Virus record (IMG/VR): IMGVR_UViG_3300009419_000115
Location: 1 to 22,162 of that record
Length of the DNA: 22,162 nt
Direction: 5' to 3' (one strand)
Source: a virus
Part shown: positions 8,113 to 22,162 of the stretch, in pieces
How the letters are laid out: each line of letters opens with the position of its first letter
Numbering within the stretch: the first letter of the stretch is position 1
Translations under genes and position numbers: made by a program
Notes under the pieces: model-generated
Seen by the model: the letters and a program-made list of their open reading frames with translations, nothing else
Database searches by the model: none
What the model was told of the DNA's origin: nothing

Positions 8113-10385
8113 TGCCAGCGTACATTAAGAAGACAGGTGGAACCTGGAGCAGCGCTATATCTGCTTTTTATATAAAAAGTAGTACCTGGAGAACTATAAG
8201 TGCTGGATATATAAAGGTTGCAGGAGTATGGAGACCGTTTTTTACAAGCTCACTTACACCTTCTATTCAATTTCCCGTAGAGATTTCTCGCAATAACGCA
8301 ACATACCCTTCAACTCTTACAGGCACTAACTATTTCTGGAGCAACTCTACATCATTAACATATGTCTTTCAAAAATCTTCTGATAACGTTAACTTTACAG
8401 ACATAGGCTCTGCAGCATCTATTAACAACCCCTCTTCAGGTTCTTCAAACACTGTAACCTACGCGCTCACACTTTCAGACTTTCCTGCGTTTACATCCTA
8501 CTTCCGCTTTGTAGTAACTGCGGTGAACTCTACGTTTTCTACCTCAGCTACATCAACTAGCGCATCTGTATCGGTAAATCGCCCTGCGCCAATTAACACT
8601 GTAGCTCCTGTAATTTCTCCTACCTCTGGCACAGAAGGCGTCACACAATACAGCGTGACAAGTAACGGCACTTGGGACCCTGTTGATGCAGACGGTACGT
8701 ATCAATATTTATGGCAGTCCTTTGACACTCCAACGTACGTTAGCGCTCCTGGTACTAATACCTTATCTACTTATACTCCGCCAGCTAACTTTTTAGCTTC
8801 AGGCTACCTAAGCCCAATCCGTTGTCGTGTTACTGCAGTAAATGCTAGCGGATCTACAGATGCGTTCTCTAACACGGCTACTGTAGCTTCTGCCGCGCCT
8901 ACGGGTGGATCAGTTACACTGTCTCCTTCAGGCTCTCAGTTTCAAGGAACTACTCTTACCGCGAGCACGACTGGCTGGTCTGGATCTCCTAGCTCTTTCA
9001 ATGTGCGTATTTTTGCTTCAGCCTCTAATCCGCCTACAACTTCAAGCACTCTTAAGGCAAGCTCCGGCGGATCAAGCTCCGTGACATACACTATTTCACC
9101 TTCAGACGCTTCGTCGGGATTATTTTTTAGAGCGTTTGCCACGGCAACCAATGGATCAGGAGCTTCCGCGGAGGTTGCATCTAACGTAGTTACATCGGTG
9201 GCGTTTACCGCACCGTCTGCTCCACAAAACCTTTCTCGCACTACAGGCAACGGCGGTTCAAAGACGTTTACATGGTCCGCGCCAGCGTCTAACGGCGGTG
9301 CGGCGATTACGTCTTATCAATACAACCTCAACAACACTGGATGGTTTACAACGTCATCAAGCACTAGCCAGTCTCTTACGTTGGCAGCAGGCTCTAATGT
9401 GTTTCAAGTCCGTGCAGTTAACTCTGTAGGCGGTGGAACAGCGGCGTCTACAGGCATATTTGTTGTTCCTACGATTAACTCTGGGCCTTCTGCTTCTTCT
9501 ATCACTACGACAAGCGCAACTATCTCATGGTCATCGTCTAACCAAGAGTCGTATTCTTTGTCTATTCCAGGAGCACCTGCAACACCTTACGGTGGGTCTA
9601 CTACCACAAGTAGATCTATTACAAGTTTATCTTCTGGCACTAGCTACACTCCTACTCTTACAATTACATCTTCTACTGGAGATACAGCAACAACTACAGG
9701 CGCTGCCTTTACTACTTCTACCGCCCCTCCAGTTAACATTTCTGCACCGACTATCTCTCCGACGTCTGGAACTGCAGGTGTAACTACTTACAGTGTTACT
9801 AGTAATGGATCTTGGAGCCCAGCAGACTCTGATGGAATCTATGAGTATCAGTGGCAGTACAACGACCAGGGCGCGACGTTCTTAAATATATCTGGTGCTA
9901 CTAGCTCTTCCTACTTTGCGCCATCAAACTTTTTCTCTTTCTATGTAAGCCCTATTCGCTGCCGCGTGACTGCGACAAATGGCGGAGGGTCAGTTGCCGC
10001 GTTCTCTAACACGGCTACAGTCTCAGCGCCTGTCCTAACTGTCCCCGGTACTGTTAACTCACTTACAGCTAGCTCTGCACTTAGTGGCACGAACTTAAAC
10101 TGGTCTGCGTCATGGTCTGCGCCTTCAAGCGATGGCGGCTCAGCTATTACTGGATATAGAATTTACGTAGAAAGAGCCGGATCTAGCTCTGGCCCTTGGT
10201 TAGCGACAACTACGCAGAGCCCAGCGGGAACAGGAGCTTTTACCCAGGCTTCACCACGCCTTGTATCTTCTGCTACAACAAGTGTCACCGGGCGTGTTAC
10301 AGGCACATCCGCTACGTGGATTCGTGTCTGGGTTGCAGCGGTCAACTCTGTCGGCACTGGTACGTACACATCGGCAGTAGGCTAA
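8112..10385 (+). CDS. Large FN3/Ig-like domain minor tail protein
   Basis: This 757-aa protein has an ATG that shares one base with the stop of the fibre gene (TAATG), implying translational coupling. Residues 1-45 hold three short YIK-x-GG-x-W-type units (YIKKTGGTW, FYIKSSTW, GYIKVAGVW), common at the start of actinophage tail proteins. Beta-sandwich domains follow. Two Ig-like copies (8588-8893 and 9726-10029) share ISPTSGT.GVT.YSVTSNG.W and SPIRCRVTA.N. There are fibronectin type III domains (PSAPQNLSRTTGNGG, TWSAPASNGGAAITSYQY; and at the C-terminus WSAPSSDGGSAITGYRIYV, WIRVWVAAVNSVGTG). Such domains on phage tails bind weakly to cell-surface carbohydrates. No enzyme motif is present. It could be a fibre or a tail-decoration protein. 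Confidence 0.75.
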   Translation: MPAYIKKTGGTWSSAISAFYIKSSTWRTISAGYIKVAGVWRPFFTSSLTPSIQFPVEISRNNATYPSTLTGTNYFWSNSTSLTYVFQKSSDNVNFTDIGSAASINNPSSGSSNTVTYALTLSDFPAFTSYFRFVVTAVNSTFSTSATSTSASVSVNRPAPINTVAPVISPTSGTEGVTQYSVTSNGTWDPVDADGTYQYLWQSFDTPTYVSAPGTNTLSTYTPPANFLASGYLSPIRCRVTAVNASGSTDAFSNTATVASAAPTGGSVTLSPSGSQFQGTTLTASTTGWSGSPSSFNVRIFASASNPPTTSSTLKASSGGSSSVTYTISPSDASSGLFFRAFATATNGSGASAEVASNVVTSVAFTAPSAPQNLSRTTGNGGSKTFTWSAPASNGGAAITSYQYNLNNTGWFTTSSSTSQSLTLAAGSNVFQVRAVNSVGGGTAASTGIFVVPTINSGPSASSITTTSATISWSSSNQESYSLSIPGAPATPYGGSTTTSRSITSLSSGTSYTPTLTITSSTGDTATTTGAAFTTSTAPPVNISAPTISPTSGTAGVTTYSVTSNGSWSPADSDGIYEYQWQYNDQGATFLNISGATSSSYFAPSNFFSFYVSPIRCRVTATNGGGSVAAFSNTATVSAPVLTVPGTVNSLTASSALSGTNLNWSASWSAPSSDGGSAITGYRIYVERAGSSSGPWLATTTQSPAGTGAFTQASPRLVSSATTSVTGRVTGTSATWIRVWVAAVNSVGTGTYTSAVG
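8588..10029 (+). repeat. Two diverged Ig-like domain copies within the FN3 protein
   Basis: Copy A spans 8588-8893 and copy B 9726-10029; an unrelated stretch of about 830 bp (one further Ig-like and two FN3-like domains) lies between them. Both encode P.N..AP.ISPTSGT.GVT.YSVTSNG.W.P.D.DG.Y.Y.WQ near the start and SPIRCRVTA.N..GS..AFSNTATV at the end. Codons differ widely, so similarity is kept at protein level. Confidence 0.85.
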
Positions 10386-11607: not shown

Positions 11608-12624
11608 ATGTTTATAGTAATTGAAGGTACAGACGCCTCAGGTAAATCTACTCTTGTGTCTGAAGTTCAAAAGCAACTTGCTGATAAGTTTCCTAATAAG
11701 GAAATCGAGTTCTACCACAAATCTAAGCCAGAAGAGATGTCTCGTCGTTGGGTTCTATACGACTATGTTACATCTATTGAAAAAGCTGACTGGTCTCAAC
11801 GTGTTGCTATCGCAGACCGTTGGCACTGGGGCGAGGTAACATACGCCGCCATCAAACGTCCTGAGACTGGCACAGGCGACGGATACGGTCTCCTTGGTAA
11901 AGCTGGTTGGCGTTGGACAGAGCTCTTCCTTCAATCACGCGGTGTTGCTCAATTTTGGCTCTATCAACCTCTTGATGTTATCACCCGTCGTCTTAATGCT
12001 CGCGGTGACGATTACATACAGGCAAGCGAGCTTGAAGAAATCCTAGAGATGTACCATCTTGCGGCGGCAAACTCTGCAGGTCTTGCAGGGCGCTTAACTC
12101 CAGGCGCAGATTCGCTTGACGCGGTTGGGCACCTTGCGTCTCACATTATCAACGTTGCCGAGGCAATAGAAGATGAAACGCGCGAGCTTGCAAAGTTTCC
12201 GGAGTATATAGGTCAACGCTATCCTCGCACGTTACTTGTAGGAGATACACGCAACATTACAAAGAAATACGGCGAGGAAACTATCCTACCTTTCATGCCT
12301 GTTGACGGCAACTCCGGCGAGTATCTACTAACCGCGCTTGAATCTGAAAAATGGAAATCTATGGGTGTCGTCAATATAAATGACATGTCGCCAGAGCGTT
12401 TTCACGCGCTATGGGCAATGTTGCGTCGTCCTCCTATAGTTGCCCTTGGGCGCTTGGCTGAAAAAGGACTTATACGCGCAGGAATACCTGAGTATCAATA
12501 CACGGTAACCTCTCATCCGCAACATGTGCGTCGATTTTTTAATTCTAAGAAAGAAGAGTATGGTCAAGCCATATCTCGCTTTGCCACTACAAAAGATAGG
12601 ACAGACCCATGGATACTGCGATAA
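11608..12624 (+). CDS. P-loop (thymidylate-kinase-like) nucleotide kinase fused to UDG-like domain
   Basis: This 338-aa protein has AAAGGA before its ATG. Residues 1-200 form a thymidylate-kinase-like P-loop domain with Walker A GTDASGKST (7-15) and DRWHWGE (70-76, the DR motif of TMP kinases). RRLNARGDD near 130 could be the lid region. Ordinary TMP kinases end at about 210 residues; here about 130 more follow. That part (LLVGDTRN, PFMPVDGNSGEYLLTALE, IVALGRLAEKGL, SHPQHVRRFF) has the layout of the uracil-DNA-glycosylase superfamily: a GD/GE motif, a PF..G.SG segment, a V.LG.xA strand and an HPQ/HPS loop (303-305). I infer the fold; activity is unknown. The gene overlaps the thymidylate-synthase-like gene by 16 bases, so the kinase likely phosphorylates that enzyme's product. 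Confidence 0.72.
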   Translation: MFIVIEGTDASGKSTLVSEVQKQLADKFPNKEIEFYHKSKPEEMSRRWVLYDYVTSIEKADWSQRVAIADRWHWGEVTYAAIKRPETGTGDGYGLLGKAGWRWTELFLQSRGVAQFWLYQPLDVITRRLNARGDDYIQASELEEILEMYHLAAANSAGLAGRLTPGADSLDAVGHLASHIINVAEAIEDETRELAKFPEYIGQRYPRTLLVGDTRNITKKYGEETILPFMPVDGNSGEYLLTALESEKWKSMGVVNINDMSPERFHALWAMLRRPPIVALGRLAEKGLIRAGIPEYQYTVTSHPQHVRRFFNSKKEEYGQAISRFATTKDRTDPWILR

Positions 12625-13475
12625 TCAACTTACCTGACGCGGTTAACGGCTACGTTAATCTTGTGCAGCACGTACTCAAGTACGGTAAGGAGGCAGCTCC
12701 TCGCGGTATGAAGACGCGCGAGATCGAGGATGCAATTATTCGCATTAACGATGTGCGACATACGCTTCCTTTAGGCGTTGGGCGTGGGACTGTTCCTGGC
12801 ATCGGTGCGGTTGAAGCTTGCCAACTACTTGCAGGCGCTGCAACTCCTAAGCTTGTTATGGCAGTCGGTCCTATGTTTAAGAACTACGCAGAAGATAACG
12901 GAATGTTTCACGGAGCATACGGTGCGCGTACGCAGGATCAATATGGGCCAGTTATCGAGCGTCTTAAGAAAGACCCTGACTCACGACAGGCGGTTGTAAC
13001 TATCTGGGATCCAGTTTTAGATCTATTGCCGGATAAGCGTGATTACCCTTGTACAGTTTTGCATCAGTTTAGAATTCGCGACAACAAGCTTAACATGAGC
13101 GTTTACATGCGCTCAAATGACGTATGGCTTGGAGCAGCATATGACTTCTTCCAGTTTACTCGCGTGCAAATTGCTATGGCGTCTGTTTTAGGAGTTGCTC
13201 CCGGATCCTATGCTCATCACGTTGGATCTCTTCACATCTATGAGCAGCACTACGACGCGGCAGAGAACCTAAAGTACACCACCGAGCCGTATGAGGATAT
13301 TCCTGCTATTACAGGATTTAACTGGCGTCAAGTGCAGGATCGCGCGCTTTCTTCCTTAACCGCTGCAATGCATATCGACGAGCCTATGCTTCTCAATAGC
13401 CTTCACCCGTTTGAAGGCTGGTATGCCCGCGCCATGATTACTGCAATCAAAAAGAACGAGGCTAAGAATGTCTGA
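12609..13475 (+). CDS. Thymidylate-synthase-family enzyme, putative dCMP hydroxymethylase
   Basis: This 288-aa protein overlaps the kinase gene by 16 bases, with ATAGGAC six bases before its ATG. Family landmarks in order are: Glu69 (VEACQLLAG, the E58 position of E. coli ThyA), YGAR (104-107), DPDSR (122-126, phosphate-binding Arg), YPCTVLHQF with catalytic Cys148, YMRSND (166-171), LGAAYDFFQFT (174-184) and GSLHIY (206-211). Thymidylate synthases have Asn in LG.PFN (N177 in E. coli), which reads dUMP; here it is Asp179. T4 dCMP hydroxymethylase also has Asp there, and changing that Asn to Asp in thymidylate synthase shifts preference to dCMP. The His after the catalytic Cys is Thr149. I therefore favour dCMP hydroxymethylase, although an atypical thymidylate synthase remains possible. 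The product would be 5-hydroxymethyl-dCMP made with methylene-tetrahydrofolate. Confidence 0.75.
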   Translation: MDTAIINLPDAVNGYVNLVQHVLKYGKEAAPRGMKTREIEDAIIRINDVRHTLPLGVGRGTVPGIGAVEACQLLAGAATPKLVMAVGPMFKNYAEDNGMFHGAYGARTQDQYGPVIERLKKDPDSRQAVVTIWDPVLDLLPDKRDYPCTVLHQFRIRDNKLNMSVYMRSNDVWLGAAYDFFQFTRVQIAMASVLGVAPGSYAHHVGSLHIYEQHYDAAENLKYTTEPYEDIPAITGFNWRQVQDRALSSLTAAMHIDEPMLLNSLHPFEGWYARAMITAIKKNEAKNV

Positions 13476-13644
13476 TCTTGAGAAAGAGTTTGGCAACAGC
13501 CCTCTACGCGAATCAATGTTGCAGCTTCATGAAATGTATCTAGAGTTGCGCGCGTCTGGCTTTAGCAAGAAACAGTCTTTGTATTTAGTATCTAAGGTCT
13601 TAACAACTGCAGTGTCAGGAAGCATGGACGATTTGAATGACTAG
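13468..13644 (+). CDS. Small 58-aa protein, unknown
   Basis: This short gene fills the gap between the thymidylate-synthase-like gene and the deaminase. It overlaps the former by eight bases and the latter by eight. GAGG lies six bases before its ATG. The product begins MSDLEKEFGNSPLRESM and has a hydrophobic helical core (LQLHEMYLELRASGFSKKQ, LYLVSKVLTT) followed by an acidic end (MDDLND). Similar short proteins with a GF.K.QAL-like helix occur in actinophage genomes, with no known function. The tight overlaps on both sides support it as a real gene. Confidence 0.7.
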   Translation: MSDLEKEFGNSPLRESMLQLHEMYLELRASGFSKKQSLYLVSKVLTTAVSGSMDDLND

Positions 13645-14113
13645 TAGACCTTCTTGGGACGAGGTATGGATGCAGGTTGCAGATGCAATCTCGCAAAGAT
13701 CCCGCTGTAGCCGCGCACAAATTGGCGCTGTTGTTGTGTCTAAGGACCAACGCATTAGCTCCACCGGCTACAACGGTCCTGCTTCCTTATTTCCTACCGA
13801 GGAGGAATGTATGTCTTGGTGCCCACGCGCTCAAGGTTTAACTACATTAGATAACACATATGACTCTTGCCCATCAATCCATGCGGAAGCAAATGCGTTG
13901 CTATACGTTGACCGTTCTCGCGTAGAAGGTGGTACCATATACATTACAGACGCAGCTTGCTACCAATGCGCAAAGTTAATTTCTAACTCTGGAATTACCC
14001 GCGTTGTTATGCGAATTGGTACGCGTGCAGCTCATCGCTTGCCGGATGCTACTGTTGAGTATTTTAAGAAATGCAATATTGATGTAGTAATAACAGAGGA
14101 CGTGGAAGCTTGA
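13637..14113 (+). CDS. Deoxycytidylate (dCMP) deaminase
   Basis: This 158-aa protein is close to the usual length of dCMP deaminases. It shows TGYNGP (43-48), the zinc motif HAE (His82, Glu84 as proton shuttle) and CYQC (Cys108, Cys111). The residue before the first zinc Cys is Ala107 where Pro is usual (PCxxC). Further Cys at 58, 62 and 78 fit the extra-Cys pattern of phage dCMP deaminases. The enzyme converts dCMP to dUMP and so feeds thymidylate synthesis. Beside a putative dCMP hydroxymethylase it would compete for or balance the dCMP pool; T4 encodes both too. It overlaps the small gene before it by eight bases and the homing endonuclease after it by four. Confidence 0.88.
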   Translation: MTSRPSWDEVWMQVADAISQRSRCSRAQIGAVVVSKDQRISSTGYNGPASLFPTEEECMSWCPRAQGLTTLDNTYDSCPSIHAEANALLYVDRSRVEGGTIYITDAACYQCAKLISNSGITRVVMRIGTRAAHRLPDATVEYFKKCNIDVVITEDVEA

Positions 14114-14685
14114 GCTGCGTATATGCGCTAGTCGCAGAATCAGACCAGGGCAACATAAGATATATCGGCCGTGCAAAAAACCCTAACGGACGTCTAAGAA
14201 ATCATTTACGTTTTGCTGAAAAAGGCAGAAAAGAGCACGTCTATAACTGGATAAATAAAGTAAAAGACAGCGGCGATAAAGTAAAGTTAATTATTGTTGA
14301 AGACAATCTTTCGTGGGAAGAGTCTGCCGCGAGAGAAATACATTACATAGCGTATTATAGGTCTTTAGGATTTGATCTAACAAATATGACCTCTGGCGGT
14401 GACGGAAGACCAGGATACGTTATTTCTAAAGAAACTAGAGAAAAAATTGGAAAATATCACAAGGGCAAAGTTCTTTCTGAAGAGACAAAGCAGAAGATAC
14501 GCGATGCAAAGATTGGTAAAAAGGTCTCTGATGAGACAAAGGCAAAAATAAGTAGTTCAACAAGAAATATTAGTCCAAAAGGCAATAGCAGACAGAAACA
14601 TGCAATGACTGATGAAGTAAAGGCAAAGATCAGCCAAACCCTTACTATCAATAACAAAAAGAGAAGAGAATCTAATGACAAATGA
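14110..14685 (+). CDS. GIY-YIG homing endonuclease with NUMOD3 repeats
   Basis: This 191-aa protein is translated from TTG, nine bases after GAGGA (14096-14100). The N-terminal GIY-YIG nuclease domain has CVYAL and IRYIGRAKNPNGRLRNHL, then REIHYIAYYRSLGFDLTN with the conserved Glu. A GGDGRPGY linker follows. The C-terminal half has several NUMOD3-type DNA-binding repeats (SKETREKIGKYHKGK, SEETKQKIRDAKIGK, SDETKAKISSS, TDEVKAKISQT). It is Lys-rich and uses AGA and ATA codons more than its neighbours, suggesting separate acquisition. It is free-standing: no intron is visible in the deaminase before it or the polymerase after it. It likely cuts a related phage genome and spreads itself with flanking genes. 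It overlaps the polymerase gene by 11 bases. Confidence 0.88.
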   Translation: MSCVYALVAESDQGNIRYIGRAKNPNGRLRNHLRFAEKGRKEHVYNWINKVKDSGDKVKLIIVEDNLSWEESAAREIHYIAYYRSLGFDLTNMTSGGDGRPGYVISKETREKIGKYHKGKVLSEETKQKIRDAKIGKKVSDETKAKISSSTRNISPKGNSRQKHAMTDEVKAKISQTLTINNKKRRESNDK

Positions 14686-16498
14686 CGCTTTAAGTGATGT
14701 CAAGCTTCATTTAGTCAATAGCACAGAAGAAGCTACTAAATTTCTACAATGGCTGGGCGAGCGTCGTCCTCACAATGCTGTGGCGATTGACACTGAAACA
14801 GGCGAAAAACCTGGAAGAGATCGAAAAGATGCACTATCGCCATGGCACGGACAATTAAGACTTATACAAGTAGGAGACGGGCAGCAAGGCTGGGCTATCC
14901 CGTGGGATCAGTGGAAAGGAGTGTTCTATGAAGGAATGGAACGCTTCGATGGACCTATAGTATGTCACAATATTGCGTTTGAAGCGCGCTGGCTTGAACT
15001 TCATTCTGAATGGAAAATGCCATGGCACAGAGCGCACGACACTATGATACAAGCGCACATCATTGACCCACTTGGCGTCGGTGCGTTAAAACGTCTTGCA
15101 GCTTTGTACGTTGATGGGCGCGCAGTCGCCTTACAAGACACATTAGACGAAGAACTAGTAAAAAATGGTTGGACATGGGGTACCGTTCCAACTAATTTTC
15201 AACCCTACTGGGCATACGGCGCGTTAGACTGTGTTCTAACTATGCGCCTGTGGGAACAGTTTAATGTAAAGTGCGGTCCTGATGGTCCATACAACAGAGC
15301 ATACGAACTAGAAATGGCAACACGTCGCATCGTTACCCGTATGGAAATTAACGGCGCGCGTATTGACCTAGACTACTCCAAGAAAAAGTTCGACGAGCTA
15401 ACAGAGTACGCAGACTCAGTTAAGACATGGGCTAAGCAAAAGTATGACGGTGTTTCTATTAGTAGTAACATTCAATTGGTTCGTCTGTTTGAGAGCCTTG
15501 GCGCAGAGATTAACGAATACACTCCTTCGGGACAAAAATCAGCTTCTAAGGATCAACTTAAGCTTCTTTCTATTGAAGGAAACGACGAGGTAAAGGCTTT
15601 AGCAGAAATCGTATTAAAGCAACGCAAGGCAGATAAGCTTGCTAATACGTATTTCTCTAACTTCTTAAATGATAACGTAAACGGATTTGTTCACCCATCT
15701 GTAAAAACGCTTGGCGCTCGTACTTCGCGTATGTCAATCCAAAACCCAGCACTGCAAACATTGCCTAAGGGTGATGATGTTGTGCGCCGTGCGTTTATCC
15801 CAAAAGATGAAGATCATGTCATCGTTACCTCAGACCTTGACCAGGTCGAGTTTAGAATGTTCGCATCACTCTCACAAGATACAAATCTTATCTCGCTTTT
15901 CAACAAAGCTGACGCGACGGGGTCAGATCCGTTCACTGAAATTGGTCGTGAAATCTACAACGACCCGAACATGCAACGGTCGGACAAGCGCCGTAACCTC
16001 ATTAAGGGAACTATCTACGGTCGTCTCTACGGCGCAGGAGTCTCTAAGCAAGCTCTAACAGCAGGCGTTCCTGAAAACCAGATGCGCACGGTATCGGATT
16101 CACTTGATACGCGATTCCCAGGTATGGCTCTATTTCAACGACAGATTGAAGACGTTGGAATGCGTCGCCTAAAGGCAGAAGGGCAAGGATATGTTTACAC
16201 CTGGACAGGTCGTCGTCTTCCTTGTGATGAAGATCGTGCTTACACATTATTAAATTATTTGATCCAAGGAGGTGCGGCTGAGGTATTTAAGTCTAACCTT
16301 GTAAAACTAGATCAGGCAGATTTAACCGAACTGCTAATCGTCCCTGTACACGATGAAATTGTTCTTAACGCACCGCGTAAGGACGTTGAAGAAATTAAAC
16401 GTACTGTTAAAGAGTGCATGACAACTACCGAAGGCTGGGCTGTGCCTCTTACGTCTGGCATTGACGGTCCTATGGAAAACTGGGGAGAAAAATACTAG
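14675..16498 (+). CDS. DNA polymerase I-family replicative polymerase (Pol A)
   Basis: This 607-aa protein has AGAAGAG before its ATG. The N-terminal 3'-5' exonuclease domain shows Exo I AIDTETG (Asp39, Glu41), Exo II HNIAFEARWL near residue 100, and Exo III YGALDCVLTMRLWE. Exo II carries Glu where most family members have Asp. There is no 5' nuclease domain, as is usual in phage enzymes. The polymerase domain has motif A SDLDQVEFRMFA near 385-395, motif B RRNLIKGTIYGRLYG near 440-453, and motif C PVHDEIVLNAP near 556-566. In motif B the residue equal to E. coli Phe762 is Tyr, as in T7 polymerase. It copies the phage genome with the helicase and recombination genes downstream. The stop overlaps the next start by one base. 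Confidence 0.95.
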   Translation: MTNDALSDVKLHLVNSTEEATKFLQWLGERRPHNAVAIDTETGEKPGRDRKDALSPWHGQLRLIQVGDGQQGWAIPWDQWKGVFYEGMERFDGPIVCHNIAFEARWLELHSEWKMPWHRAHDTMIQAHIIDPLGVGALKRLAALYVDGRAVALQDTLDEELVKNGWTWGTVPTNFQPYWAYGALDCVLTMRLWEQFNVKCGPDGPYNRAYELEMATRRIVTRMEINGARIDLDYSKKKFDELTEYADSVKTWAKQKYDGVSISSNIQLVRLFESLGAEINEYTPSGQKSASKDQLKLLSIEGNDEVKALAEIVLKQRKADKLANTYFSNFLNDNVNGFVHPSVKTLGARTSRMSIQNPALQTLPKGDDVVRRAFIPKDEDHVIVTSDLDQVEFRMFASLSQDTNLISLFNKADATGSDPFTEIGREIYNDPNMQRSDKRRNLIKGTIYGRLYGAGVSKQALTAGVPENQMRTVSDSLDTRFPGMALFQRQIEDVGMRRLKAEGQGYVYTWTGRRLPCDEDRAYTLLNYLIQGGAAEVFKSNLVKLDQADLTELLIVPVHDEIVLNAPRKDVEEIKRTVKECMTTTEGWAVPLTSGIDGPMENWGEKY

Positions 16499-16950
16499 TG
16501 AAGATGATCTTATCGGTAGACCCAGGCAAGGCAACAGGTATGACCTTGTTCTCATTTGAAAGAGGGCAGGAGCCAGTCCTAGTCTGGGCAGGTGAGTACC
16601 AACAAGAAGAATACGCTAAGCCTATTCGTGACACTCTTGTTGAATACCCTGACGTGACTGTTGTCTGCGAGCGCTTTATCATTAACGCTCAGACTGCAAA
16701 AAAGAGTCAAGCTCCGTACAGCCTCGAGCAGATTGGAATTCTCAAGCAGTGTCTTATGGACGCAGGAAGAAAGGTAGATGACATCATCTTCCAATCACCT
16801 TCTGACGCTAAGGCAATGTTTGATAATCCTAAACTTAAGAAGCTTGAGTATTGGTACGTAGGTGGTGAAGGACACGCACTAGATTCAATACGACACGCCC
16901 TCTTACAGTGCGTAAAGCTAGGATGGATCCCTAGAAGGCTCCTACAATAA
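16498..16950 (+). CDS. RuvC-like Holliday junction resolvase
   Basis: This 150-aa protein starts at GTG 16498, one base into the polymerase stop (TAGTG). GGGGAG lies ten bases upstream; the ATG at 16504 would sit too far away. It shows the RNase H-fold nuclease core: ILSVDPGKATG with Asp8, VVCERFI with Glu58, and a C-terminal GHALDSIRHALL carrying the further acidic residues. This is the pattern of phage RuvC-like resolvases, which cut four-way junctions made in recombination and replication. The length (150-170) is normal for the family. It lies with a helicase, a nuclease and a Sak4-like ATPase. Confidence 0.82.
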   Translation: MKMILSVDPGKATGMTLFSFERGQEPVLVWAGEYQQEEYAKPIRDTLVEYPDVTVVCERFIINAQTAKKSQAPYSLEQIGILKQCLMDAGRKVDDIIFQSPSDAKAMFDNPKLKKLEYWYVGGEGHALDSIRHALLQCVKLGWIPRRLLQ

Positions 16951-16966
16951 ATAAAGTAGATACTAA

Positions 16967-16990
16967 GCAGAAACAATAGACAATTTCTGC
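16967..16990 (+). repeat. 7-bp inverted repeat overlapping a -35 element
   Basis: GCAGAAA (16967-16973) and TTTCTGC (16984-16990) are perfect inverted repeats with a 10-nt spacer. The spacer contains the likely -35 (TAGACA, 16977-16982) of the promoter before the helicase gene. No T-run follows, so an operator is likelier than a terminator. Confidence 0.5.
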
Positions 16991-17006
16991 AAAATCCTGT
17001 TAGTAT
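16977..17006 (+). promoter_or_regulatory. Promoter before SNF2 helicase gene
   Basis: TAGACA (five of six of TTGACA) at 16977-16982 is separated by 18 bp from TAGTAT (17001-17006), which is preceded by TG at 16998-16999 as an extended -10. It lies in the 87-bp gap before the helicase gene. The -10 continues as AGCG, like the element at 10584 and similar to AGTG at 21163. Confidence 0.55.
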
Positions 17007-17037
17007 AGCGAAGTAATGACGAAAGGAATGACAAACA

Positions 17038-18840
17038 GTGCCAGTTGTAGTAGAGCTTGATGAATCAGGCAAGCACGTAGTTATCAATACTGAGTGGCGT
17101 CTTAAGGAACTATGCAAAAGTATTCCTGGAGCAAAGTGGGACGCAAAGACTCAGGTTTGGAACGTGCCTACAAGTTGGGCAACATGCTTAGCATTACGCA
17201 GTACCTTTAAGACTGACCTGCAAATTGGCCCTAGATTGACCGCCTGGGCAACTAACGAAGTTACCACACGTATTACCCCGGCGAACACATTACGTGACCT
17301 AGAAACCCTGGAAGAGGGCAACGAGGACCTGTTCCCACATCAGCGCGCAGGTGTGAAATTCTTATCGGTTGCCCGTAGAGCATTACTAGCAGACGAGCCT
17401 GGTCTTGGTAAAACAGCACAGGCAATTAGAGCATTAAAGCAACTTCAAGATAACGGGGAAGATGTATTCCCTGCGCTTATCGTTTGCCCTAACACATTGA
17501 AGAAAAACTGGAAGCGCGAGTTTGATATGTGGTGGCCTGGAGTTGATGTTGAGGTTATCAAAGGATCAGCAACTCAACGTAGGAAGATCTTTGAGAACGA
17601 AGCTGACGTATACGTTATTAACTGGGAGTCCTTGCGCTCACACTCTCGACTTGCTTCCTACGGGTCTATAGCCCTTGCGCGGTGTCAAGAATGCGGCGGG
17701 CATGATGAGAGGGTTACTGTAAACCGCTGCGAGGTTCACAAGCGAGAACTTAACGAGATTGATTTTAAGGCAGTTATTGCTGACGAGATCCACCGCTCTA
17801 AGGAGCCAAAATCTAAGCAATCACGTGCCCTGTGGGCTGCAACTGGCAACGCAGATATTAGGTTTGCCCTAACAGGTACGCCTATTGCAAACAACGTTTT
17901 AGATCTATGGTCAATCCTTCACTGGTTATCACCTGAAGAGTGGCCAAGCAAGACACGCTGGGTTGACCGTATGGTTAACGTAATGTTGAATGCCTTTGGC
18001 GGCATGATGGTGTTAGGTGTAAAGCCTCACATGGAGGAAGAGTTCTACGCAACTATAAATCCACGCATGCGTCGTATGCTCAAGGCAAAGGTATTGCCTT
18101 GGCTACCTGAAATGATGTTTGAACGTCGTGATATTGAAATGTCTGCTAAGCAAAAGAAAGCTTATGACCAGATGCGCGACACGATGATTGCAGAGCTAGA
18201 ATCTGGAGAAGCGATTACCGCACCTTCAGCGTTGACGCAGACAATTCGTCTACTTCAATTTGCAAGCTCATACGCCGAGATGGACGTAAACGAAGAAACT
18301 GGTGAGATGCGTGCGATTCTTGCCGAGCCTTCTTGTAAGGTTGATTCTCTTATGGACGACATTCAAAACGGCGACTTTGGAGATGATTCGGTCGCGGTGT
18401 GCGCGGTGTCGCGTCAGTTGATTGATTTACTTAGTGCAGAAATGACTAAGGCTAAGATTCCACATGGTCTCATCACTGGTGCTCAGGATGAAGATGAACG
18501 TCAACAAGCGGTTGACGATTTTCAATCTGGCAAGATCAAGTGGATACTTTTTACAGCTCAGGCTGGCGGTGTCGGTATTACGCTTACCGCTGCTCGTCGT
18601 CTAGTGATGTTGCAACGTCCATGGTCACTTGTAGATCATAAGCAAGCGCTTGACCGTGTACACCGTATCGGATCTGAAATCCATGACTCGATCATCGTTA
18701 CAGACTACGTTACAGATGGTTCTATCGAGGAAAGAGTTATCCAAGTCTTATCAACTAAGGCTGATAACTTTGAACAAATTGTAAAAGATAAAGACAAGCT
18801 TCTCACACTACTCAAAGACGATAAGGCAGGAAAGCTATGA
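17038..18840 (+). CDS. SNF2-family DNA helicase/translocase
   Basis: This 600-aa protein starts at GTG 17038 after AAAGGA. Residues 1-60 contain WDAKTQVWNVP, like the short accessory domain before phage SNF2 helicases. ATPase motifs: I DEPGLGKT (119-126), II DEIH (249-252), III TGTPIANN (near 279), V AGGVGITLTAA and VI QALDRVHRIG (536-545). DEIH rather than DEAH/DEGH is within family range. Between motifs I and II is an insertion with CQEC and CEVH (about 216-233) that could bind zinc. Such phage proteins translocate on double-stranded DNA and take part in replication restart and recombination. It overlaps the next gene by four bases (ATGA). Confidence 0.9.
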   Translation: MPVVVELDESGKHVVINTEWRLKELCKSIPGAKWDAKTQVWNVPTSWATCLALRSTFKTDLQIGPRLTAWATNEVTTRITPANTLRDLETLEEGNEDLFPHQRAGVKFLSVARRALLADEPGLGKTAQAIRALKQLQDNGEDVFPALIVCPNTLKKNWKREFDMWWPGVDVEVIKGSATQRRKIFENEADVYVINWESLRSHSRLASYGSIALARCQECGGHDERVTVNRCEVHKRELNEIDFKAVIADEIHRSKEPKSKQSRALWAATGNADIRFALTGTPIANNVLDLWSILHWLSPEEWPSKTRWVDRMVNVMLNAFGGMMVLGVKPHMEEEFYATINPRMRRMLKAKVLPWLPEMMFERRDIEMSAKQKKAYDQMRDTMIAELESGEAITAPSALTQTIRLLQFASSYAEMDVNEETGEMRAILAEPSCKVDSLMDDIQNGDFGDDSVAVCAVSRQLIDLLSAEMTKAKIPHGLITGAQDEDERQQAVDDFQSGKIKWILFTAQAGGVGITLTAARRLVMLQRPWSLVDHKQALDRVHRIGSEIHDSIIVTDYVTDGSIEERVIQVLSTKADNFEQIVKDKDKLLTLLKDDKAGKL

Positions 18841-19766
18841 CCCAGCCGATAAGAATCTCTAACTCCGAGATCCAAACCTTCAAGGATTGTCGCAGACGAT
18901 GGTGGCTTAGCTACTACCGTCGCCTACAACCTAGAACTCAACAGATGACGGGTGCACTTGCTCTTGGTTCTCGTGTTCACGAGGCACTTGACATGTACTA
19001 CGGCAAAGGTATTCCGCTTCTTGACGCTCATGCGGAACTTGTCGTAAAGGATAAGCTCATTCTTGAGGAATCCTTCCGCGATACATACGATTTAGACTCT
19101 GAGGCAGAGCTCGGGCGCATCATGCTTGAAGGCTATCTACAGTGGGTTGATGAAAATGGCATTGACGCGGAACTAGAAATGATTTCAACTGAAGAGATCA
19201 TTGAGATGCCTTTGCTTAATGGCGAGGTTATCCTACAAGGTAAGATTGATATGCGTGTACGTCGCAAGGCAGACGGAGTACGTATGTTTAGAGACTTTAA
19301 GACAGTCGGCGGCTCATTTACAGACTTCTCTGCTATGGCGCACATGAACGAACAGATTCTTACCTACATGATGTTAGAGACAGCGCAGAACAAAGAAGGC
19401 GAACGCTCTGAAGGCGGAATCTTTACTATGCTCAAGAAGGTAAAGCGCTCTGCAAATGCAAAGCCTCCGTTCTACGAGCAAATTGAAGTTCGTCACAATG
19501 TTTTTGCCTTGCGCTCGTTTTGGCAACGTATCCACGGCGTTTTAACAAACATGATGGGTGCACGCAAGGCGCTTGATGAAGGCGGGGATCATCGTTTTAT
19601 CGCGTACCCTAGTCCTTCGCGTGATTGCAAATGGAAATGCTCATTCTTCTCAATATGTCCGATGTTTGATGACGGGTCTGCGGCTGAGGCTGCACTTGAA
19701 GACGCGTTCCAACCGTCAGATCCTTATGCCTATTACGGTGTAGAAGAGAAGAAGGGTAACGCTTAA
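18837..19766 (+). CDS. Cas4/RecB-like PD-(D/E)XK exonuclease with Fe-S-type cysteines
   Basis: This 309-aa protein overlaps the helicase stop by four bases. It has Cys18 in FKDCRRRWW, GSRVHEA with His48, then the nuclease core GKIDMRV (Asp138), FRDFKTVG (Asp153, Lys155) and NEQILTYMML, the QxxxY motif. The C-terminus has Cys264, Cys268 and Cys274 (C-x3-C-x5-C), which together with Cys18 gives the four-cysteine set that binds a [4Fe-4S] cluster in Cas4, AddB and related nucleases. It likely resects DNA ends to feed the Sak4-like recombinase two genes down. No CRISPR array is nearby, so it is a recombination nuclease, not an adaptation Cas4. Confidence 0.85.
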   Translation: MTQPIRISNSEIQTFKDCRRRWWLSYYRRLQPRTQQMTGALALGSRVHEALDMYYGKGIPLLDAHAELVVKDKLILEESFRDTYDLDSEAELGRIMLEGYLQWVDENGIDAELEMISTEEIIEMPLLNGEVILQGKIDMRVRRKADGVRMFRDFKTVGGSFTDFSAMAHMNEQILTYMMLETAQNKEGERSEGGIFTMLKKVKRSANAKPPFYEQIEVRHNVFALRSFWQRIHGVLTNMMGARKALDEGGDHRFIAYPSPSRDCKWKCSFFSICPMFDDGSAAEAALEDAFQPSDPYAYYGVEEKKGNA

Positions 19767-19805
19767 TAATGTTAAACAAACACAAAGAGATGAAAGGAAA
19801 CAGTG

Positions 19806-20582
19806 ATGTCTGACGTACAACGTTCGTTGACTATCATGGTTTACGGCGAATCAAAGGTTGGTAAATCAACCTTCGCGGTAACCGCACCATATCCACGTCT
19901 CATGCTTGACGTTGAGGGTGGGCATCGATTCCTACCTATCACCGTTAAGTACTGGGACCCTATTAGAGAAGAACCTCCAGTTGCTGATGGCACCTGGGAC
20001 ACTGTAGTCGTTAACGTTCGCGACTACGATGTTGTTCTTAAAACATTCCAGTGGCTACAAACTGGAAAGCATCAGTTCAAGTCGCTTATCATTGATTCCA
20101 TCTCTGAACTTCAAGTGAAGTGCATGGATTCAATCGCAGGCACTGAACAAATGAAGATGCAACAATGGGGCGAGCTGCTTCGTCACATGGGTGCGCTATT
20201 GCGTGACCTGCGTGACTTAACAATGCACCCTACACAACCATTAGAAGCTGTTGTATTGACTGCTATGGCGCGTCCTGGAGCAGACGGTCGTTCACGTCCG
20301 TACCTACAGGGTCAGCTTGCAATTCAAGCACCATACTTCTATGACATCCTTGGCGCAATTACAGTAGAAACGTTTCCTAATCCGGACCCACTGCAATCAC
20401 CGTTTAAGGCACGTCGTATGTACGTAGAACGCACAGACGAATACGAAGCAGGCGAGCGAGTACAAGGTCGACTTGGAAAGATCGTTGAACAAGAAAACCT
20501 TGGTATCGAACGCATGCTTGACATGATTTTCGGTCCAACTACACCAGCAGTAACACCACCAACAACTAAGTCAGGAGAATAA
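19806..20582 (+). CDS. Sak4-like RecA-fold ATPase (single-strand annealing/recombination)
   Basis: The ATG at 19806 is chosen, seven bases after AGGA; a GTG at 19803 in the same frame lies only four away. The 258-aa product has Walker A GESKVGKST (14-22), LDVEGGHRF, Walker B SLIIDSI (about 93-99) and the segment VLTAMARPGADGRSRPYLQG. This is the layout of Sak4-type RecA/Rad51-core ATPases of phages, which lack most of RecA's extra domains and work with an SSB. It is followed four bases after its stop by the SSB-like gene, as is usual for Sak4 loci. It lies in line with the resolvase, helicase and nuclease. Confidence 0.82.
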   Translation: MSDVQRSLTIMVYGESKVGKSTFAVTAPYPRLMLDVEGGHRFLPITVKYWDPIREEPPVADGTWDTVVVNVRDYDVVLKTFQWLQTGKHQFKSLIIDSISELQVKCMDSIAGTEQMKMQQWGELLRHMGALLRDLRDLTMHPTQPLEAVVLTAMARPGADGRSRPYLQGQLAIQAPYFYDILGAITVETFPNPDPLQSPFKARRMYVERTDEYEAGERVQGRLGKIVEQENLGIERMLDMIFGPTTPAVTPPTTKSGE

Positions 20583-20586
20583 CCAG

Positions 20587-21123
20587 ATGAGTTCACTCAA
20601 TTGGGGCGATCTTGTAAAAGACGCCGGAGATGTAGGCAGTTATGAACCACTACCAGACGGTGACTATGATCTCGTAGTTCAAGAAATCGTTGCAAAGGTT
20701 TCACAATCAGGCAAGACTATGTTCTCGCTTAAAGCACAGGTCCAGGGCGGCGCTCATAACAAGCGTCTTGTTTGGGATAACTTAGTTGTTACTCCAGAAT
20801 CACCTGCTGCTCTTGGTATGTTTTTCCGCAAGATGGCAGCTCTCGGTTTAGGCCGCGAGTTCTTTGCAACAAGTCCTTCTAACGCTGCAATCGAGCAAGC
20901 TGCTAAGGGACGCGCGTTTCGTGCACAGGTTGGCTCGCGCACATGGCAGGGCCAAAAGAAGAACGAAATCAAGATGTACTATGTTGCAACAGGTACAGCT
21001 GCTCCAGTGGCAGCAGCGGCAGCGCCTGCACCTGCTCCAGCACCTGCCCCTGCACCAGCGCCCGCGCCTGCAGCAGCTCCAGTAGCAGAAACTCCTGCAG
21101 CTCCACCATCAGCACCGTTCTAA
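20587..21123 (+). CDS. SSB-like single-stranded DNA-binding protein (DUF669-like)
   Basis: This 178-aa protein has AGGAG nine bases before its ATG. Residues 1-135 look like a DUF669-type phage ssDNA-binding fold: PDGDYDLVVQEIVAKVSQSG, then MFSLKAQVQGG, and a strand-rich LVWDNLVVTPES. A long Pro-Ala tail follows (about 138-178; alternating AP units encoded at 21025-21080), ending in SAPF. The C-terminal Phe recalls the tip of bacterial SSBs, but the acidic residues are missing. It directly follows the Sak4-like gene, its usual partner. The tail length probably varies among relatives because the codons are repetitive. Confidence 0.72.
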   Translation: MSSLNWGDLVKDAGDVGSYEPLPDGDYDLVVQEIVAKVSQSGKTMFSLKAQVQGGAHNKRLVWDNLVVTPESPAALGMFFRKMAALGLGREFFATSPSNAAIEQAAKGRAFRAQVGSRTWQGQKKNEIKMYYVATGTAAPVAAAAAPAPAPAPAPAPAPAPAAAPVAETPAAPPSAPF

Positions 21124-21143
21124 TCGACTAAGTAAGTCTGGTT

Positions 21144-21177
21144 TATCATCTATTCCTAGTATAGTGAATAGATGATA
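21144..21177 (+). repeat. Perfect 12-bp inverted repeat with -10 box in the loop
   Basis: TATCATCTATTC (21144-21155) is perfectly inverted as GAATAGATGATA (21166-21177) around the 10-nt spacer CTAGTATAGT, which contains the TAGTATA promoter-like element. There is no T-run, so it is a better operator candidate than a terminator, although it also follows the SSB gene stop. Confidence 0.75.
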
Positions 21178-21193
21178 TTCCAAATCTACTTAG
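21157..21193 (+). promoter_or_regulatory. Promoter-like element with shared leader motif, upstream of glycosyltransferase gene
   Basis: TAGTATA (21157-21163) is followed 19 nt later by AATCTACTTAG (21183-21193) and a GAAGGG ribosome binding site. The same pair, 17 nt apart, lies before the gp37-like tail gene at 4599-4633. The first half sits inside the palindrome at 21144-21177. No -35 match is seen. Confidence 0.45.
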
Positions 21194-21206
21194 AAGGGTA
21201 GTGGGC

Positions 21207-22162
21207 ATGAAGGTATTGATGAGTGGTTTTACCGCGTTGCAAATCAACACGGAAAAACGTACAATACAAAAGATTGACGTACCTGCGTCTATCGCAAAAG
21301 CTTTGCGCGAAGCTGGACATGACGTTGACTGGCGTAAAATTACTCCAGGTGAGGATCTTTCTGGCTATGACGTTTTATGGATCAATCTTGCTCCACTCAA
21401 CTCATTAAATGGTCGTCAAGGTGCGATGGGTGCACTTTATGCTTTGTCCTCAGGCATCCCTTGCGTAGGATTCTTTGATGATTGGCAATTCAATACTGTA
21501 TTCAACGGAGCACGCGCGCTAATTCGCAAGCCTGCTATGCTTTATAAGCATCTGCTTGTTGGAACAGAGCATCGCGGTGAAGAGGGCGCGACTTACTTTA
21601 GTCGTGCAGATATTGAGGCAGCGCTTGAGCGTGTCAGAGAATTGAACCCAGCGGCTGCTAAGAAGTGTTATATCGAACGCTACTACATGATGGATACAGA
21701 CGAAAACGTTCAGCCTTACGAAAAGCGTCTTGTTGAAGCAGCGCGTGATCTTTTAGCAGATCGTTGGACTGCAGGTATGGTTCCAGTTTGCCCTATGTAC
21801 TCATTTGGCGACAGAGCTATCGTGCGTAAGCGCATGCCTGATGAGGTAGGACCTATTGAAGCTCTTGACCCAACGTCAACTGTTGTGCCAACACTTCAAC
21901 CAATAACTGCGCTCGCGCCAGAGCACAAGAAAAAGGCTTGGGTGCTTGGAGCTCTTATGCCACATGATACTTGGCTAGAAAAGAAAAATCCAGACTGGCC
22001 AGTTGAGATTGTTGGAAGTCGTAAGCTTATTAAGAAACTTGGCGGACAAAGATTTGATACAGAGCAGGACGTTTTAGAGTTCTACAATCATCACTGGGGA
22101 ATTCTTTCTCCACCGTATCCACACGCTGGTTCAGGCTGGTGGCGTAGTCGTTTCCTATACGC
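21207..22162 (+). CDS. GT-B-like glycosyltransferase (N-terminal 318 residues; 3' end outside window)
   Basis: The frame is open from ATG 21207 to the window end. GAAGGG lies eight bases before the ATG. The N-terminus MKVLMSGFT, ASIAKALREAGHDVDW and GYDVLWINLAP is a Rossmann-like fold as in GT-B enzymes, followed by SGIPCVGFFDDWQF. A helical middle follows. The second half has AWVLGALMPHDTW, VEIVGSRK and then WGILSPPYPHAGSGWWRSRF at the cut end, the type of donor-site segment seen in GT-B glycosyltransferases. The family resembles glycosyltransferases of actinophages. It may glycosylate hydroxymethylated bases made by the putative dCMP hydroxymethylase at 12609, or another acceptor; the sequence does not say. 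The fold assignment is moderately sure and the substrate unknown. Confidence 0.62.
   Translation, partial: MKVLMSGFTALQINTEKRTIQKIDVPASIAKALREAGHDVDWRKITPGEDLSGYDVLWINLAPLNSLNGRQGAMGALYALSSGIPCVGFFDDWQFNTVFNGARALIRKPAMLYKHLLVGTEHRGEEGATYFSRADIEAALERVRELNPAAAKKCYIERYYMMDTDENVQPYEKRLVEAARDLLADRWTAGMVPVCPMYSFGDRAIVRKRMPDEVGPIEALDPTSTVVPTLQPITALAPEHKKKAWVLGALMPHDTWLEKKNPDWPVEIVGSRKLIKKLGGQRFDTEQDVLEFYNHHWGILSPPYPHAGSGWWRSRFLY

Follow-up and report, generated by a model that had tools for sequence, protein, structure and literature searches.

A predicted cytosine-hypermodification operon and a variable glycosyltransferase slot in freshwater phages

The gene block described here is probably a phage cytosine-hypermodification operon, which would synthesize 5-hydroxymethyl-dCTP and subsequently glycosylate the DNA; both the chemistry and the sugar are what we infer. 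A preliminary description had proposed a T4-like cytosine hypermodification carried out by different protein families. This proposal is now supported by the residue code of a thymidylate synthase (TS)-like enzyme, by the fold of a glycosyltransferase (GT), by gene co-occurrence and by a pyrophosphohydrolase gene found downstream in relatives, all of which point to a modification of this kind.

In the pathway that we propose, an all-alpha pyrophosphohydrolase of the dUTPase_2 family would remove dCTP, giving dCMP, which the TS-superfamily enzyme would turn into 5-hydroxymethyl-dCMP, the step most strongly indicated by residues. The product would be phosphorylated by the overlapping kinase-UDG protein, and its triphosphate would be completed by host enzymes and inserted by the phage family A DNA polymerase (PolA). 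Finally, GT1 and then its paralogue GT2 would put one or two sugars on hmC in DNA, as fold, position and co-occurrence suggest. The dCMP deaminase would divert dCMP to dUMP for dTMP supply, the established function of its family. We found no nucleoside chemistry for any close relative and, in the papers searched, none linking these actinophages to hmC.

Gene content and order

The window, meaning the whole stretch of DNA analysed, is IMGVR_UViG_3300009419_000115 (22,162 nt). Based on the ORF list, its pathway genes are all on the + strand in a single tightly packed block (Table 1). The source is a freshwater phage fragment. The genes named in the preliminary description (TS-like, overlapping kinase, deaminase, PolA and GT) are all present according to the ORF list, Pfam and PHROG. 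The synteny of the block is kept in about 100 metagenomic relatives, which rules out a chance arrangement.

Table 1. Features of the block, in window coordinates
Feature	Position	Strand	Evidence
P-loop (TMK/YorR-like) nucleoside-monophosphate kinase domain, residues 1-195 of 338-aa fusion	11608..12192	+	phrog_761, YorR matches
UDG-superfamily C-terminal domain of fusion (predicted), residues 197-338	12196..12624	+	PF03167 in relatives, phage G gp315
Predicted TS-superfamily dCMP hydroxymethylase	12609..13475	+	PF00303, residue code
58-aa ORF between TS and deaminase genes	13468..13644	+	ORF list
dCMP deaminase	13637..14113	+	PF00383 2.5e-18, phrog_174 5.6e-47
GIY-YIG/NUMOD3 homing endonuclease	14110..14685	+	PF01541 and PF07460
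Family A DNA polymerase (PolA)	14675..16498	+	PF00476 1e-53
RuvC-like resolvase, conserved replication block	16498..16950	+	phrog_1981; syntenic DSL-LC01 gene annotated RuvC-like
SNF2-type helicase, conserved replication block	17038..18840	+	PF00176 2e-39
PD-(D/E)XK exonuclease	18837..19766	+	PF12705 1e-20
Sak4-like recombinase	19803..20582	+	phrog_124 2e-29
Single-strand DNA binding protein (SSB); variable sugar cassette comes next	20587..21123	+	phrog_378 3e-9
GT-B glycosyltransferase GT1, cut by contig end after about 320 of 403-405 aa	21201..22162	+	full-length relatives, AF2, Foldseek

The Zn site of the deaminase is intact (H82-A-E84, C108 and C111), with ligands that are invariant across 57 relatives. 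The homing endonuclease is an insertion whose site is empty in 98/98 relatives, and it stands outside the modification pathway. For the 58-aa ORF, family searches returned no significant Pfam or PHROG family.

Predicted pathway enzymes

The TS-like protein matches PF00303 (E=3e-28), and its best solved relative is the CMP 5-hydroxymethylase MilA (5b6d, E=1.8e-23). Its key residues are E69, R126, C148, S169, D179, H209 and Y211. According to a code defined on MilA, T4 gp42, TS and SPO1 enzymes, Asp at the base position (T4 D179, MilA D186) reads cytosine and Asn reads uracil, while a Ser/Arg pair selects deoxyribose and CMP enzymes carry Ala/Lys (PMC5175136). The catalytic C148 and E69 are found in 55/55 distinct relatives, and the base-reading D179 as well as S169 and R126 are invariant in the window and the same 55. 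Among controls, the base-reading position is N in the SPO1 dUMP hydroxymethylase gp29 and in Aeromonas td, and D in T4 gp42. This residue code is the one expected of the cytosine-type hydroxymethylase suggested earlier, and it argues strongly for an enzyme making 5-hydroxymethyl-dCMP from dCMP. Because of D179, the enzyme is not expected to use dUMP, and S169/R126 rule out a MilA-like specificity for ribo-CMP. Support in the TS tree is too weak to bear on an independent origin of D at the base-reading position.

The kinase gene (11608-12624) overlaps the TS-like gene by 16 bases. Its product matches the thymidylate kinase family phrog_761 (E=2e-13), the solved SPbeta YorR by profile (2axp/3kb2, E=4.5e-9) and 3kb2 by structure (Foldseek, E=1e-7); P-loop residues G7, G12 and K13 are conserved in relatives together with D70-R71. 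We propose that this domain is a (hm)dCMP kinase.

The preliminary description mentioned a kinase fusion but not the nature of the partner domain, which we predict to belong to the UDG superfamily because of the Pfam hits of relatives and of Bacillus phage G gp315. PF03167 hits (E<=10) come from 17 of 39 relatives, the strongest at 3.9e-4; the window protein itself scores 0.077, under the Pfam cut-off, and the C-terminus of gp315 reaches 1.5e-12, above it. The AF2 model has a pLDDT of 93, and the structural match to gp315 is full-length (Foldseek, E=3e-16). Intact UDG motifs such as GxNPG and HPS are missing from the window group, which reads GDxRN and HPQ; in gp315, which reads AQNPG and HPA, a canonical-looking NPG survives that is gone from the window protein. 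A profile search of the UDG-like domain alone against solved structures gave nothing useful, and the best 50 PDB matches of the whole model (Foldseek) were to kinases only. More tentatively, the fusion may screen or edit the nucleotide or base.

GT1 has no match in Pfam, PF11440 (AGT) included, and its profile found no relative among solved structures. With T4 AGT/BGT it shares the GT-B fold only, with no sequence similarity. The GT-B-like character first suspected from the truncated gene is borne out on L002, a full-length relative (405 aa, 99% identical, AF2 pLDDT 85), whose model matches GT-B enzymes, with T4 BGT at rank 4 (Foldseek, 1qkj, E=4e-5; 1c3j, TM 0.49/0.57) and T4 AGT 1y6f also matched. 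GT-B folds act on a wide range of acceptors. A GT homologue and a TS-family gene occur together in 10/11 GT-bearing phage records from four unrelated lineages, and these TS-family genes carry the cytosine code wherever read; the exception is cyanophage C48C1, which has the GT homologue and no TS-family gene. Such co-occurrence had been named beforehand as a check, and its lack together with a grouping among cell-surface sugar transferases as a refutation. A scan of 84,980 genomes, limited to two peptide patterns, confirmed no cellular or bacterial relative of GT1. Fold, position and co-occurrence thus suggest GT1 as a candidate DNA hmC glycosyltransferase.

The slot after the SSB gene

In 94/101 relatives with downstream sequence, the paralogues GT1 and GT2 follow the SSB gene. 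Where relatives are long enough, a dUTPase_2 gene (PF08761, 1e-10) and a C5-cytosine DNA methyltransferase gene (C5-MTase, PF00145) come next, the latter conserved in the same module. The dUTPase_2-family NTP pyrophosphohydrolase is absent from the window and is encoded just past the contig-end position in near-identical relatives. This family includes the T4 dCTPase gp56. A dCTP-removing enzyme had been expected, if at all, outside the window, which agrees with this dUTPase_2/MazG-like gene, a family match only, directly downstream in relatives. The conserved C5-MTase would be odd if all cytosine were replaced, and counts against our explanation.

Other cassettes occupy the same slot. For example, DSL-LC01 carries GT-UDP-galactopyranose mutase (UGM)-GT, and freshwater relatives carry an APH-like kinase, a HAD protein, an NTP-transferase and a new GT. 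UGM adjoins a GT1 homologue in the four Tulanevirus records examined (phage 25 by position only). As a fixed part of the pathway UGM was rejected, being absent from 16/16 metagenomic relatives searched. Separately, an insert lies directly after the TS gene in 14/95 relatives, and is a GT2-family transferase where read. Beyond what was noted before, the post-SSB slot is modular and its swaps bring in sugar-nucleotide enzymes. We propose that the sugar varies among relatives because this slot carries interchangeable transferase and donor-sugar genes. More tentatively, freshwater actinophages may combine a constant hmC-making core with an exchangeable slot whose genes decorate the DNA with different sugars; in the UGM forms, one of these could be a furanose, for instance galactofuranose. 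To our knowledge, galactofuranosylated DNA has not been described so far.

Alternative readings and known systems

An enzyme that makes 5-hydroxy-dCMP, with the sugar ether-linked at C5 without a methylene as in Mosigvirus, is a very improbable alternative. Arabinosylation of RB69/NP DNA resembles the window group in its TS-superfamily cytosine enzyme, phage-encoded sugar-donor genes and sequential transferases, and it also relies on a sugar-gene cluster (PMC13390438). RB69 ORF048c, taken as the 5-hodCMP synthase of that study, likewise has D at the base position, S and R. Against this, the window enzyme keeps RSND and H209-x-Y211 like T4 gp42, and the RSQN and Phe of ORF048c are missing from it, residues whose use as activity markers we infer. 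Its best structural relative is a hydroxymethylase, and the enzyme at the same locus in phage Kurnik is 51% identical to T4 gp42. Mosigvirus further differs in its 5-hydroxy-dC linkage and in having no detectable GT1 homologue.

We consider it very improbable that the block is a nucleotide-metabolism operon that boosts pyrimidine supply, with a GT acting on the host envelope or another target. TS, TMK and dCMP deaminase are indeed common phage nucleotide genes, and C48C1 has its GT without a TS. D179 nevertheless predicts no dUMP use (PMC5175136), the GT adjoins replication genes and a pyrophosphohydrolase gene, and both the 10/11 co-occurrence in four lineages and the pattern-limited scan argue against this reading. 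A thymidine (hmU) hypermodification, by a dUMP hydroxymethylase and a kinase-UDG acting as a 5-hmdU DNA kinase/pyrophosphorylase-like pair, is the least credible. A kinase with a glycosylase-fold partner next to a TS homologue does resemble the M6/ViI pathways, and SPO1 gp29 is the nearest functionally characterised phage enzyme among those compared (34%, BLAST). A uracil enzyme would be expected to have N at position 179, though, where D is invariant in 55 relatives, and the matches of the kinase are to nucleotide kinases, YorR among them; we rejected the hmU pathway on D179.

The proposed hypermodification shares a set of roles with the T4 hmC glucosylation system (gp56, gp42, gp1, cd, AGT/BGT): a predicted dCMP hydroxymethylase of the TS superfamily that carries the residue code of gp42, an NMP kinase, a deaminase and GT-B transferases, to which relatives of the window add the all-alpha pyrophosphohydrolase and two transferases. 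The window TS lineage is nonetheless far from T4 gp42 (about 30% over 165 aa). Also unlike T4, its kinase has a predicted UDG-superfamily domain as fusion partner, its replisome is of PolA type, its GTs are not sequence-detectable and its relatives' hosts are actinobacterial. Bacillus phage G gp306-gp319 similarly combines a kinase-UDG fusion (gp315), a deaminase (gp317) and a D-type TS (gp319) with an AGT-family (PF11440) transferase (gp313), an annotated alpha-GT (gp306), an NTP-transferase, a HAD and an APH-like protein; phage G differs in being a jumbo phage with AGT-family transferases instead of the GT1 family.

The cultured Micrococcus phage Kurnik (OR756649) has the order of the window group (kinase, hydroxymethylase, deaminase, PolA, RuvC, helicase, nuclease, Sak4, SSB, GTs, MazG and C5-MTase), but with a T4-gp42-type hydroxymethylase in the TS slot, a kinase without UDG domain and different GTs. 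This T4-gp42-like enzyme within a conserved gene order adds to the preliminary description. The closest annotated relative, Actinomycetia phage DSL-LC01 (OQ999401; kinase 50%, TS 61% and GT 29% identical), has the same synteny and differs from the window group by the UGM inserted between its two GTs. Its genome is metagenome-assembled, and its UGM was published as a cell-wall auxiliary gene, not as DNA modification (PMC10611076).

Should our reading be correct, these freshwater phages, a large, widespread group with >100 metagenomic relatives, conceal their DNA with sugar-modified cytosine, which would shield it from bacterial defences. They would also provide a new GT family and a new kinase-UDG architecture, the latter shared with Bacillus phage G. 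Relatives with named hosts, namely Kurnik on Micrococcus and GMA2 and Boopy on Gordonia, allow direct checking. The sugar module is not constant even among close relatives, a pattern that an arms race against type IV restriction enzymes and DNA-glycosylase defences would be expected to produce.

Residue code of the TS-superfamily enzyme and its kinase partner

The preliminary description proposed a DNA cytosine hypermodification pathway, and this reading is supported. What is demonstrated below is the gene content, the residue code, the fold, the synteny, the exchange of cassettes in one slot and the co-occurrence of genes. The thymidylate-synthase-superfamily (TS) product of 288 aa matches PF00303 (Pfam, 3e-28) and has as its top solved relative the CMP 5-hydroxymethylase MilA (profile E = 6e-29). 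In the three-residue code of MilA, Asp reads cytosine and Asn uracil, while Ser and Arg specify deoxyribose and Ala and Lys ribose (PMC5175136). Aligned with MilA, the window enzyme has C148, D179, S169 and R126; like E69, H209 and Y211, these residues are unchanged in all 55 distinct relatives compared. Controls at the base-reading position behave as expected, with D in T4 gp42 and N in both SPO1 gp29 (a dUMP hydroxymethylase) and Aeromonas td. RB69 ORF048c, taken here to be the 5-hydroxy-dCMP synthase of PMC13390438, shares the D but departs from the window at two further active-site positions, with RSQN where the window has RSND, and F in place of Y211. Given the code, the controls and these active-site differences, dCMP hydroxymethylase is the best prediction from sequence, as the preliminary description had it.

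Micrococcus phage Kurnik (recorded host Micrococcus) has the gene order of the window group: TMK-like kinase, hydroxymethylase, deaminase, PolA, RuvC, helicase, exonuclease, Sak4-like and SSB, followed by three GT-like genes, MazG and a C5-MTase. Over 208 aa, its hydroxymethylase shares 51% identity with T4 gp42; identity to the window enzyme is just 39%, over 119 aa. That a T4-type enzyme occupies this slot argues strongly, if circumstantially, for 5-hydroxymethyl-dCMP as the product of the slot, which would then be the precise C5 product in the window.

The overlapping kinase, which would act on this product, is TMK/YorR-like with an intact P-loop (residues 1-195). For the previously unassigned residues 197-338, the uracil-DNA-glycosylase (UDG) superfamily is the commonest family match among relatives (17/39, best E 4e-4), and the AlphaFold2 model is confident (pLDDT 93). 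The best viral structure match, spanning the whole protein, is gp315 of Bacillus phage G (E = 3e-16), whose C-terminus matches PF03167 at 1.5e-12, exceeding the curated cut-off. The window group has GDxRN, not the usual GxNPG-type catalytic motif, so this domain may bind instead of cutting. In phage G, gp315 is accompanied by gp317, a dCMP deaminase; by gp319, a TS homologue that shares the cytosine code; by gp313, of the AGT family (PF11440, 3e-9); and by gp306, annotated as an alpha-glucosyltransferase.

Glycosyltransferases and their co-occurrence with TS-family genes

The window GT1 protein has no Pfam match and is truncated by the contig end. A relative's locus, L002 (97% DNA identity over 3.3 kb), supplies the full 405-aa protein, and its AlphaFold2 model (pLDDT 85) sits among GT-B enzymes in Foldseek, including T4 BGT (1qkj, E = 4e-5) and T4 AGT (1y6f, 3e-4). 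Against the T4 BGT structure 1c3j the TM scores are 0.49/0.57 with a large inter-domain rmsd. These model matches support the GT-B fold previously suggested for GT1, not its choice of acceptor.

To set the scale, 3,047 of 50,697 phage records contain a tblastn match to the window TS. In a profile search of 13 phage records, the GT was found in 11; T4 and RB69, which have their own GTs, gave no match. Ten of the 11 carry a TS-family gene, with the cytosine code in every candidate read at residue level, and span four lineages: DSL-LC01-type actinophages, Gordonia phages, Tulanevirus and a spring-water siphovirus. The sole exception is cyanophage C48C1, where no TS-family gene was found; the GT may thus act on another acceptor too. 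A scan of 84,980 genomes, limited to two peptide patterns, confirmed no cellular relative of the GT.

Exchangeable slot after SSB

Among 101 loci with sequence past SSB, 94 have GT1 followed by GT2, a shorter paralogue (BLASTP 3e-7). The others have GT-UGM-GT (2, both DSL-LC01), a single GT (1) or another cassette (4). One such cassette, followed further in L147/L231, contains a different large GT-like protein, a weakly APH-like kinase, a HAD-family protein and an NTP-transferase, with GT2 and the pyrophosphohydrolase coming after it. Its GT-like protein has a single homologue among public phages, in Kurnik. AGT-family enzymes of phage G are likewise accompanied by gp309, from the sugar-nucleotidyltransferase family, the HAD hydrolase gp310 and the weakly APH-like gp311; sequence similarity is detectable for the NTP-transferases only. 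An insert of the size found in L028 lies directly 3′ of the TS gene in 14 of 95 relatives; the one read, that of L028, encodes a GT2-family transferase (PF13704, 5e-14). In Aeromonas/Stenotrophomonas Tulanevirus phages, UGM lies immediately upstream of the GT1 homologue (in phage 25, by position only). All four examined have a second, gp42-like TS-family gene, its D read directly in 60AhydR15PP.

In relatives, GT2 is followed by a dUTPase_2-family all-alpha pyrophosphohydrolase, more small genes and a C5-cytosine methyltransferase. T4 gp56 dCTPase is a member of this dimeric dUTPase family. The pyrophosphohydrolase is a candidate for the dCTP-removing enzyme that the preliminary description missed and placed possibly outside the window. 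We infer the substrates of this enzyme, of the kinase and of the GTs, and the identity of the sugar. The methyltransferase has PPCS and ESV/ECV where PPCQ and ENV are usual. Its conservation may point to a predicted replacement of cytosine that is only partial, or to other DNA as its substrate.

Features of the window and of relatives' loci (L numbers; L162/L163, DSL-LC01; L197, cyanophage C48C1)
Feature	Location	Strand	Remark
Tail genes	2-2962 (tape-measure-like) and proteins downstream		window left side; ORF listing
Tightly packed gene block	from 11608 onward	+	
Kinase with fused putative UDG-superfamily domain	11608-12624	+	338 aa
TS-superfamily enzyme	12609-13475	+	
GIY-YIG/NUMOD3 homing endonuclease	14110-14685		inserted between deaminase and PolA
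GT1	21201-22162	+	after SSB
Post-TS insert	L028:1775-2818		
Alternative cassette	L231:12181-15435	-	415-aa GT-like protein, APH-like kinase, HAD hydrolase, NTP-transferase
C5-cytosine DNA methyltransferase (PF00145)	L002:6034-7284; L162:38375-39619; L235:15465-16847		kept after pyrophosphohydrolase
DSL-LC01 extras	L163:5802-6620, 7451-8332; L162:41149-43793		TauD-like dioxygenase, beta-mannosyltransferase-like gene, another glycosyltransferase, tryptophan halogenase
GT homologue, C48C1 (Kyanoviridae)	L197:5001-6035		

Host and meaning of the locus

The window is a 22.2 kb metagenomic virus record in which no tRNA genes were found. Its homing endonuclease is an insert at a site where 0 of 98 relatives carry any insert. 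Annotated close relatives are Gordonia phages and Actinomycetia phage DSL-LC01, whose genome was assembled from a metagenome and whose host is predicted to be an actinobacterium (PMC10611076). Such a host would fit with the WhiB-like protein that DSL-LC01 is annotated to encode and with a similar ORF downstream in L002.

Taken together, the locus is supported as a probable variant of phage hmC glycosylation, notable for its putative kinase-UDG fusion, its GT1/GT2 family and an exchangeable sugar slot. Such DNA would be expected to resist restriction or CRISPR.
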